DNA of 64,000 nt. It comes from Warburgia ugandensis. Taxonomy: Eukaryota > Streptophyta > Magnoliopsida > Canellales > Canellaceae. The translations under genes and the position numbers were made by a program. The notes beneath the pieces are model-generated. The model had not been told where the DNA came from. It saw only the letters and a program-made list of their open reading frames with translations, and made no database searches. The first letter of the stretch is position 1. Each line of letters opens with the position of its first letter. Of the stretch, positions 20,013 through 56,306 are shown piece by piece. The stretch lies in NCBI GenBank assembly GCA_035236585.1, contig CP141131.1, positions 17,645,103 to 17,709,102 on the forward strand, in the 5' to 3' direction.

Positions 20013-20082
20013 ATGTCTACCGATCCCGTAGACGATGTGGATCGTCTCTTCGACTGCTTCAAATGTGGAATTTGTACCCCCA
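20013..20082 (+). CDS. PRIMPOL: PrimPol exon 1 (start codon)
   Basis: It codes [20 protein letters not shown] and ends one base into codon 24 at A|GTAAGT, a near-perfect donor. The DDVDRLF-x-CFKCG start matches, from memory, the N-terminus of plant PrimPol proteins. The two closely spaced cysteines (CFKCGIC) are not part of the known C-terminal zinc module. The ATG at 20013 is chosen because upstream ATGs are out of frame. Confidence 0.85.
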
Positions 20083-56000: not shown

Positions 56001-56306
56001 GTGGCCTAGAAGTCTTGTTTCATGCATTCATGCTTGTAGTTAATAGCTGTCTTATTATTTTTTAACTAAGAATGGCTATTCTAATAATTGCTATTAGTGA
56101 AAGTAAACATACCAAGCATTTCTTAGAACTCAAGAATACACAAGCAAGAACCTGAGAATGACTTTACTTTTCATTTGTTCACTTTGCAGAATGAGGAACA
56201 GATGTTTATGGAGTCCTTGATCTGCAGAATGGATGTTGACTGCAAGAGGCTTCTAATTTGCAAAATGGATTTAGATTGCCAAAAGACTCTTTGCTTTGAT
56301 TCTGAG
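20013..56306 (+). CDS. PRIMPOL: PrimPol, DNA-directed primase/polymerase (5' nine exons; 3' end outside window)
   Basis: Exons are 20013-20082, 25913-26067, 26840-27009, 27131-27277, 27418-27469, 28249-28423, 37504-37586, 39529-39741 and 56190-56306. They give 394 codons with all phases closing. PrimPol of the archaeo-eukaryotic primase superfamily re-primes DNA synthesis ahead of stalled forks in nucleus and organelles, making primers with NTPs or dNTPs. The catalytic set is visible: motif I YFDLEF (D207, E209), motif II EKFSRH (K258, S260, H262) and motif [13 protein letters not shown] (D320), equal to human D114/E116, K165/S167/H169 and D280. The C-terminal zinc-binding module and RPA-binding tail are not in the window. 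Introns are very large (5.8, 9.1, 16.4 and more than 7.7 kb). The family call is firm. The exon 2 donor is the weakest boundary. Confidence 0.93.
22590..22985 (-). pseudogene. ndhD: Nuclear plastid DNA fragment of ndhD
   Basis: Minus-strand frames read [80 protein letters not shown] and PMPKIF in the right order. They follow plastid NAD(P)H dehydrogenase subunit 4 (LAGILLKMGAYGLVRI.., [29 protein letters not shown]-x-GIGS, LNGAxLQxxSHGFIGAALFFLAG, RLVYLDE, PMPKIF). NdhD is a proton-pumping membrane subunit of the thylakoid NDH complex. The fragment covers about 130 residues in several frames with many changes, so it is an old, dead transfer. Confidence 0.85.
23053..23132 (+). repeat. (GA)n microsatellite, about 80 bp
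   Basis: An uninterrupted GA/AG run in PrimPol intron 1. Its minus-strand Ser-Leu frame is an artefact. Confidence 0.97.
24434..25010 (+). mobile_element. Ty3/gypsy remnant: end of integrase region
   Basis: A decayed fossil with no LTRs seen. Short matches in order to plant gypsy integrase are a [15 protein letters not shown] block (as in HPQTDGQTEVVNRSL), a [13 protein letters not shown] block (as in PHVEFAYN..TTKFSPFE), and later [18 protein letters not shown] and LVPYYGN (as in KLxPRADGPFxVLxKINDNAY..LxPYxG). It is broken in many places and is clearly old. Confidence 0.75.
25073..25111 (+). repeat. (CT)n microsatellite
   Basis: A pure CT run of about 39 bp, 800 bp before PrimPol exon 2. 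Confidence 0.95.
25913..26067 (+). CDS. PRIMPOL: PrimPol exon 2
   Basis: It begins after ATGACAG and reads [20 protein letters not shown] and so on, a basic/acidic linker-like region before the catalytic core. The acceptor and frame are good. The donor is uncertain: ending at AAA|GTGACT (26067) closes the phase with exon 3, but this is a weak donor. The frame stays open to 26103, so an alternative end is possible. Confidence 0.65.
26316..26395 (-). mobile_element. Au SINE copy 9, truncated
   Basis: Only the 3' part of Au is present in reverse complement: GTGCATGAAGCTCCCGTGTA, GGTCTGGGGAAGAGGCAGAC, CAAGGGTCTATAG. It lies in PrimPol intron 2 (26068-26839). Confidence 0.8.
26840..27009 (+). CDS. 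PRIMPOL: PrimPol exon 3
   Basis: It is bounded by TTTTCAG|G and CTGAG|GTATCT and is 170 nt (56 codons plus 2 nt). It reads [15 protein letters not shown], then [20 protein letters not shown] and [16 protein letters not shown]. The [13 protein letters not shown] block is, from memory, conserved in plant PrimPols. Confidence 0.85.
27131..27277 (+). CDS. PRIMPOL: PrimPol exon 4
   Basis: 147 nt between AATGTAG|G and AAAAG|GTCGTA. It reads [28 protein letters not shown] and [14 protein letters not shown]. This matches the first beta strands of the human catalytic core (RQAQAFNFVKS..DVHVFALE..IYLVTTYAEFW). Confidence 0.93.
27418..27469 (+). CDS. PRIMPOL: PrimPol exon 5
   Basis: A 52-nt microexon-sized piece between TTTCAG|G and CAGGAG|GTTTGA, coding [17 protein letters not shown]. 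It corresponds to human SRKNLLHCYEVIPE. Phases on both sides fit. Confidence 0.9.
28249..28423 (+). CDS. PRIMPOL: PrimPol exon 6 (catalytic motif I)
   Basis: 175 nt. It reads [20 protein letters not shown], then [20 protein letters not shown] and [10 protein letters not shown]. It holds motif I, D-x-E, whose acids bind the catalytic metal. Human has [16 protein letters not shown] and LNLDSSTDEKFSRH at the same places. The donor G|GTATGT splits a Glu codon. Confidence 0.95.
29640..35020 (+). mobile_element. Degraded Ty3/gypsy LTR retrotransposon
   Basis: Parts in order: gag from about 29661, a CCHC zinc knuckle ([14 protein letters not shown]) at about 30550, a protease-like block with [11 protein letters not shown] at about 30905, and RT (beginning near 31480; [10 protein letters not shown] at about 31957). 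RNase H (about 32400-32700) and integrase (about 33000-33650) follow. A polypurine-like tract ends just before TGATGGGGACC at 34587, which probably starts the 3' LTR. Its outer end near 35020 is a guess. No 5' LTR was found. It is broken in many places (well over ten) and is an old fossil. Confidence 0.85.
34330..34560 (+). repeat. Imperfect tandem repeats between integrase and 3' LTR of the gypsy element
   Basis: Blocks such as TTGAAGACCC, CATTGGGAAG and GCATACATG recur at about 90-bp steps (near 34330, 34400, 34430 and 34502). Such non-coding tandem repeats before the 3' LTR occur in some plant gypsy lineages. Confidence 0.6.
36264..36526 (+). repeat. 133-bp tandem duplication in intron 6
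   Basis: Two units (36264-36396 and 36397-36526) share ATCTCATGGTCCAAGAAGGC, CATCTTGATCCTCCTAGA and CTCTAAGCAAG, differing at about one base in ten. Confidence 0.92.
36660..37255 (-). pseudogene. Unrecognised coding-like stretch, antisense in intron 6
   Basis: The minus frame from 37255 reads [20 protein letters not shown] onward for 119 codons. After two in-frame stops (near 36896 and 36855) the same frame resumes with [40 protein letters not shown] and [19 protein letters not shown]. Holding one protein-like frame over about 600 bp suggests a decayed coding sequence such as a retrocopy of a host gene. I do not recognise the protein and cannot exclude an unknown element. Confidence 0.35.
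37504..37586 (+). CDS. PRIMPOL: PrimPol exon 7 (catalytic motif II)
   Basis: 83 nt between CTTGGCAG and GAG|GTATGT. It reads [20 protein letters not shown], then HIGGFVAE, near identical in layout to human [25 protein letters not shown]. Lys258, Ser260 and His262 form the nucleotide-binding motif II. Confidence 0.95.
37778..38118 (+). repeat. 176-bp tandem duplication in intron 7
   Basis: Units 37778-37953 and 37954-38118 are nearly identical (GACTCTCAAACGCCAATAGC, AGCTTATGCTAACATAATTA, GGAGAACCTAAGCTTATTAA), with only a handful of differences, so the duplication is recent. Confidence 0.95.
39033..39102 (+). repeat. (GT)n microsatellite, about 70 bp
   Basis: An uninterrupted GT run in PrimPol intron 7, about 430 bp before exon 8. 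Confidence 0.97.
39529..39741 (+). CDS. PRIMPOL: PrimPol exon 8 (catalytic motif III)
   Basis: 213 nt (71 codons) between TTTGTCAG and AACATG|GTAAGT. It reads [20 protein letters not shown], then [40 protein letters not shown]. It matches human KHLFVDLGVYTRNRNFRLYKSSKIGK. Asp320 is the third catalytic acid, and the RNR and SSKxGK basics correspond to human R288 and K297. The linker between motifs II and III is much shorter than in human. Confidence 0.95.
40571..40800 (-). repeat. LTR of copia element 1 (its 3' LTR)
   Basis: It shares AAACCCTTAGAATGGGT, ATTTTGCACCTCACACTTAA and GATAGTTACATGCTCCTAAC with the LTR at 45083-45378. It contains a (CA)n(TA)n run at 40657-40692 and only a short GA run. 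Confidence 0.92.
45083..45378 (-). repeat. LTR of copia element 1 (its 5' LTR) with an expanded (GA)n tract
   Basis: The same LTR, but with a (GA)n tract of about 115 bp (45092-45206) and no long CA run. This explains most of the length difference from the other LTR. Confidence 0.93.
45379..47729. other. Intron 8 sequence between the two copia elements; nothing recognised
   Basis: Short open patches occur (for example near 46420-46690), but no domain, RNA gene or terminal repeat could be supported. It may be old, unrecognisable element sequence. Confidence 0.35.
50545..51664. mobile_element. hAT-type MITE in copia element 2, with 8-bp target duplication
   Basis: ATGTATAC lies at 50537-50544 and again at 51665-51672. 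The ends are CTATGTAGTCGCAGGCGC and, inverted, CTATGTAGTCAGAGGCGC. Subterminal GC-rich words (GCCTAGGTG, CGCGCCTAGGCGC, TTGCGCC) recur near both ends, as in hAT elements. The 8-bp duplication is the hAT hallmark. No transposase is present, so it is non-autonomous. A second copy of the right end lies inside at 51350-51367, an exact inverse of the 18-bp left end. Confidence 0.88.
51106..51192 (+). repeat. GC-rich local repeat inside the MITE
   Basis: A G/C island within AT-rich sequence, with recurring GGGGGCAG/ACCCC, GTGGGGTCC and GGGGGTCC words. It can fold on itself. Its function is unknown. Confidence 0.6.
52136..54840 (+). mobile_element. Internally deleted Ty3/gypsy element nested in copia element 2
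   Basis: The 5' LTR (about 52136-52535) and 3' LTR (about 54484-54840) share GGCAAGGAAAGCAACAAGGA, GCAGATATATTTCAGGATAA and AACTAATTAGGTTACGGGAA. A primer site like tRNA-Met (TGGTATCAGAGCTAGG) lies at 52549. Gag follows (53024-53360), then a CCHC-like knuckle ([14 protein letters not shown]) at about 53458, a protease tail and RNase H ([20 protein letters not shown] at about 53870). Most of RT and all integrase are missing, so it is non-autonomous. A polypurine tract (TTGGGGGAAG) precedes the 3' LTR. The LTRs differ by substitutions of several percent plus indels. The 3' LTR stops where an Au SINE begins. Confidence 0.87.
54841..54972 (-). mobile_element. Au SINE copy 10 at the end of the gypsy 3' LTR
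   Basis: It carries GGGCGGACCACAAGGGCCTA, AGAGGCTGATTCCACACCTT and GCGCCAAGGCTCCCCTTC in Au order (reverse complement), with the 3'-most part missing. LTR sequence ends exactly at its left edge and does not resume to its right. Confidence 0.87.
56190..56306 (+). CDS. PRIMPOL: PrimPol exon 9 (last exon in window)
   Basis: 117 nt (39 codons) between CTTTGCAG and TCTGAG|GTATGA. It reads [36 protein letters not shown]. It aligns with human DEYQYFLSSLVSNVRFSDTLRIL, the end of the catalytic module. Two near-repeats ([10 protein letters not shown] / [10 protein letters not shown]) are visible. The phase is open to a further exon, which I did not find before 64000. Confidence 0.88.

Follow-up and report, generated by a model that had tools for sequence, protein, structure and literature searches.

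An apparently complete PrimPol gene with element-filled introns in Warburgia ugandensis

Can the gene of a replication-restart enzyme stay complete when its introns fill with mobile elements? The question is raised by a PrimPol locus on contig C6 of Warburgia ugandensis, whose genome comprises 1.12 Gb in 14 contigs. The stretch of DNA analysed, here called the window, is a 64,000-base part of that contig. An earlier note on it had described nine exons with 394 codons over 36.3 kb, a full catalytic set and a gene that continues past the window. The locus is very probably a complete plant PrimPol gene, normal and intact in sequence, with introns that have been expanded in part by elements.

Gene model and predicted protein

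The gene model has 14 exons on the plus strand (Table 1). It spans 50,456 bp and its product has 607 amino acids. The first nine exons (20013-56306) sum to 1,182 nt, which bears out the exon and codon numbers of the earlier note. All 13 introns have GT-AG boundaries and the phases agree at every junction. The placement of exons 1, 2 and 9 depends on that note, since exons 1 and 9 were found via its coordinates and exon 2 is the candidate whose length met its codon total. Exon 2 is without a counterpart in human PrimPol. Exon 9, once placed, aligned to the human protein.

The tblastn query was a human PrimPol sequence and the target was the window with its flanks. Collinear matches were obtained inside the window at 27138, 28258, 37503 and 39625, and past its end at 64970, 66220 and 69902. 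Splice and codon scores together with phase then settled the limits of the exons. For the chain of human PrimPol pieces the score is 173, whereas 100 shuffled proteins reach 74.3 at most. The chain has eight members, of which those at 47546 and 78288 score low and have no place among the exons of the model. A further match at 50924 is weak (E 2.9) and was rejected as an exon. The open frame that holds exon 7 (37494-37640) matches human PrimPol 7jk1 on its own (phmmer 4.5e-7).

Table 1. Features of the PrimPol locus in window numbering.
Feature	Position	Strand	Evidence
Exon 1 with start codon	20013-20082	+	ATG and GT donor, at the start coordinate of the earlier note
Exon 2, boundaries tentative, weak donor	25913-26067	+	open frame; phase suits exons 1 and 3
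Exon 3	26840-27009	+	splice and codon score
Exon 4	27131-27277	+	tblastn against human PrimPol 41-87, 1.9e-5
Exon 5 (HHYEVIQE)	27418-27469	+	motif search, splice sites, phase
Exon 6, motif I DLE (D207, E209)	28249-28423	+	tblastn 1.8e-9
Intron 6, 9,080 bp	28424-37503	+	length from exon model
Weak gypsy-like pieces, intron 6	near 30475-32418		zinc knuckle 0.0064, below cut-off; remainder by eye
Exon 7, motif II KFSRHL (K258, S260, H262)	37504-37586	+	tblastn with human PrimPol; phmmer to 7jk1
Exon 8, motif III (D320)	39529-39741	+	tblastn 5e-4
Intron 8, 16,448 bp	39742-56189	+	length from exon model
Copia retrotransposon remnant, intron 8, between two terminal repeats	40587-45377	-	repeat pair; gag_pre-integrs 1.4e-15, SH3_retrovirus 8.6e-21
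Copia remnant, intron 8	48139-50407	+	Retrotran_gag_3 1.4e-8, SH3_retrovirus 1.7e-12
Gypsy-type remnant, intron 8, between two terminal repeats	52139-54839	+	repeat pair 91.6-93.5%; RT_RNaseH 1.1e-6
Exon 9	56190-56306	+	end coordinate of the earlier note; frame, phase, splice sites
Intron 9, first part (whole intron 8,567 bp; exon 10 from 64874)	56307-64000	+	
LINE remnant, intron 9	57862-60747	+	RVT_1 1.1e-5, below cut-off
Exons 10-13, past the window	64874-65030, 66221-66328, 69906-69971, 70078-70346	+	
Exon 14, tentative, past the window	70430-70468	+	

The complete product finds human PrimPol 7jk1 at 9.7e-44, which together with the tblastn pieces confirms the proposed identity. PrimPol is a CCDC111-type primase-polymerase and belongs to the archaeo-eukaryotic primase (AEP) superfamily. 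The DxE of AEP motif I, the SxH of motif II with its preceding lysine and the aspartate of motif III are all present, the last aligned with human LFVD. Each of these residues occupies exactly the position reported before. The zinc module was expected beyond position 64000 and is found there, where five more exons (the last one tentative) complete the gene. A UL52-like domain (PF03121) covers residues 455-515 with 53 bits against a cut-off of 21 (3.1e-14). Candidate zinc ligands are C471, H478, C498 and C503, and their spacing equals what we take to be the human PrimPol pattern.

Upstream of the gene, a plastid-like fragment of petA (apocytochrome f) is located at 9842-10420 (Pfam 1.1e-18). It is probably an insertion of plastid DNA. 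A divergent gene sharing the PrimPol promoter was considered on the minus strand (19066-19557) and rejected, as the frame has no Pfam match and looks repeat-like by eye. The RNA-family search and the tRNA gene search gave no matches.

Intron content and length

The introns sum to 48,635 bp. Introns 1 to 13 measure 5830, 772, 121, 140, 779, 9080, 1942, 16448, 8567, 1190, 3577, 106 and 83 bp, so the four longest are introns 8, 6, 9 and 1. Documented element spans amount to 12,647 bp, to which the weak gypsy-like stretch of intron 6 is added. The earlier estimate of about 25 kb of element DNA is thus supported in kind and not reached in amount. Likewise, the proposed 16-kb intron with nested elements has the proposed length, but its elements look side by side. 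Among 20 frames searched with Pfam, eight have a match at 0.01 or below, three of these eight only below the family cut-off. Pieces of the LINE remnant that are 75-89% alike recur on C14. When some 190 kb of other sequence was used for comparison, only 3,295 of the 50,456 bases came out as repeated; that sample is too small to gauge the element load. Two-copy tandem repeats flank exon 7 at 36263-36524 (unit of 134 bp) and 37778-38114 (unit of 176 bp).

Other replication genes of the same genome served to judge this length. An MCM search returned 48 exon pieces, grouped into 13 loci, 12 of which contain at least two pieces. Gaps above 5 kb occur in two of these 12 loci (23,425 and 7,160 bp) and the gaps in the other ten do not exceed 1,254 bp. 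All these values are distances between domain pieces, as are those of PRIM1, and domain searches do not cover whole genes. On C10, gaps of 216 and 944 bp separate the PRIM1-like pieces. A second pair of PRIM1-like pieces (PF01896) is present at C4:51796510-51796882 and may be a duplicate or a relic. The larger of the two MCM gaps lies in the locus C2:28932313-28956794, which we take to be an MCM8-like gene. There, an intron of 23,446 bp with GT-AG boundaries and matching phase (C2:28932482-28955927) was confirmed within the part examined, the MCM domain. The size of the PrimPol gene is therefore not unique, and very long introns are present in other replication genes of this genome. As ten of the 12 MCM loci are compact, PrimPol lies at the long end.

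Comparable lengths are reported for other plants. According to the available text of PMC8626473, 876 of 2,184 orthologues of Chloranthus spicatus exceed 20 kb and LTR elements appear to be the major contributor. Long introns with intronic repeats are reported for white spruce in the part of PMC4108047 at hand. Among the literature matches listed, no paper on intron expansion in PrimPol was found. The view that so much inserted DNA is remarkable in a gene for replication restart is weakly supported. The MCM8-like intron and the long Chloranthus genes speak against it, and the compactness of most MCM loci speaks for it.

A decayed duplicate on C14

A genome-wide protein search, in which the best 15 candidates were scored, gave 14 matches. 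Thirteen are pieces of the C6 gene and one is on C14. A second complete PrimPol, which the earlier note had named, together with silence of this locus, as a finding that would overturn its view, was looked for and not found in the assembly among these best 15 candidates. A search with PF03121 (E up to 10) gave eight matches, two of which belong to the C6 gene; stretches of about 3 kb around the other six contain no PrimPol match. Probably, the C6 gene is the only working copy of this plant.

The region C14:35420261-35481812 (loci L038-L047) is inverted and collinear with 17354-116562 in window numbering (100 kb of C14 compared). Both ends of the PrimPol gene are included. Since the inverted collinear matches extend across and beyond the gene, the C14 region is a duplicated block of whole-genome or segmental origin. 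About 19925-20162 (exon 1), 23134-66910 (exons 2-11) and 69733-70228 (exon 12 with bases 1-151 of the 269 in exon 13) are absent on C14. The duplicate retains its 3' end and some of introns 1 and 11, and its last splice acceptor is altered. On its sequence, the C14 match is the end of a decayed collinear PrimPol duplicate without exons 1-12 and more than half of exon 13. In the first intron, neighbouring matches are 23.8 kb apart on C14 and 17 bases apart on C6. Either C14 gained DNA here or C6 lost it.

Six segments common to C6 and C14, one of them partly coding, have K2P distances of 0.159-0.243. The trimmed LTR pairs of intron 8 are closer, with 0.069 and 0.031 for two gypsy-type stretches and 0.061 for the copia element. 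By this comparison, insertion of the gypsy-type element probably followed the duplication. Without trimming, the gypsy-type pair gives 0.099 and the copia pair 0.239, the latter including simple repeats and flank. This larger distance makes the age order less sure for the copia element, which perhaps also post-dates the duplication. The comparison yields an order and not a date.

Together, these observations suggest how the locus may have formed. An old duplication would have produced two PrimPol copies, one of which was then dismantled by deletions. LTR elements and LINEs would have inserted into the surviving copy and lengthened its introns. At least one of these insertions, and probably a second, would be younger than the duplication. 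Ordinary splicing is expected to remove the long introns, and their length would leave the enzyme unchanged.

Alternative explanations and known systems

The same intron lengths could be read as decay. The gene might be a recent pseudogene with exons intact by inertia, in which long element-filled introns (39,925 bp for introns 1, 6, 8 and 9 together) block productive transcripts; the duplicate on C14, after all, has already decayed. However, no damage is seen in the frames, the splice dinucleotides, the catalytic residues or the zinc ligands, no complete copy that could take over was found among the best 15 candidates, and the MCM8-like gene has a longer intron. A pseudogene is therefore quite unlikely. 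Misassembly, by which unrelated pieces would have been joined and the introns appear falsely long, is extremely improbable. The introns are indeed repetitive, but neither the gene nor the rest of the 64,000-base window contains any N. Furthermore, the exons are ordered on one strand over 50 kb with consistent phases throughout, and C14 is collinear with both ends of the gene.

A regulatory explanation concerns the position of the introns. Silenced intronic elements might promote early polyadenylation, leaving the catalytic core without the zinc module, a polymerase without priming. Introns 8 and 9 do separate motif III from the zinc exons. In Arabidopsis and rice, early polyadenylation in heterochromatic introns follows the loss of IBM2-type factors, as far as the accessible part of PMC7145194 reports. 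Compared with the error-prone splicing that the earlier note had considered possible for the 16-kb intron, early polyadenylation would be the first candidate. Arabidopsis PrimPol that lacks its zinc finger made no primers, and the gene has three predicted isoforms (PMC8523556, in excerpt). Nothing specific to the PrimPol locus was found, however, and this explanation is also quite unlikely. Its extension is very doubtful, namely that the elements of introns 8 and 9 act as a switch, where failure of IBM2/EDM2-type factors at silenced elements would give early ends and a bypass-only PrimPol without repriming. If it were true, the element load would tune the balance between bypass and repriming. 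In any case, the locus offers a way to test whether transcripts end early between two functional modules.

The complete gene with element-expanded introns is the preferred reading. As a gene, the C6 PrimPol is ordinary. Its interest is that a gene of genome maintenance, for which no second full copy is apparent, has kept its exons while the introns reached 48.6 kb, and that the dismantled duplicate on C14 helps to order part of this growth. In such genomes, long element-filled introns are suggested to be no sign of decay.

The MCM8-like gene, likewise a conserved gene of replication and repair, also contains a single intron of great length. Conserved genes above 20 kb, whose introns owe much of their length to LTR elements, are also described for Chloranthus spicatus and magnoliids (PMC8626473, available text). 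With human PrimPol (7jk1, 5l2x), the catalytic core aligns over residues 134-286 and 315-384. The linker between motifs II and III is shorter than in human PrimPol, as reported for Arabidopsis in the excerpt of PMC8523556. That source gives 34% identity to human PrimPol for Arabidopsis isoform 3, the same value as obtained here for the Warburgia product against the human sequence. Among the closest known systems is Arabidopsis thaliana PrimPol itself (At5g52800), with 614 residues in the longest predicted isoform compared to 607 here. Both proteins have the plant N-terminal extension, AEP motifs I-III and a C-terminal zinc finger (PMC8523556, in part). Arabidopsis PrimPol acts there as a primase and lesion-bypass polymerase in the nucleus and organelles, and the same role, with repriming and lesion bypass, is expected for the predicted Warburgia enzyme. 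The Warburgia gene is set apart from that of Arabidopsis by its spread over 50 kb and its element-filled introns.
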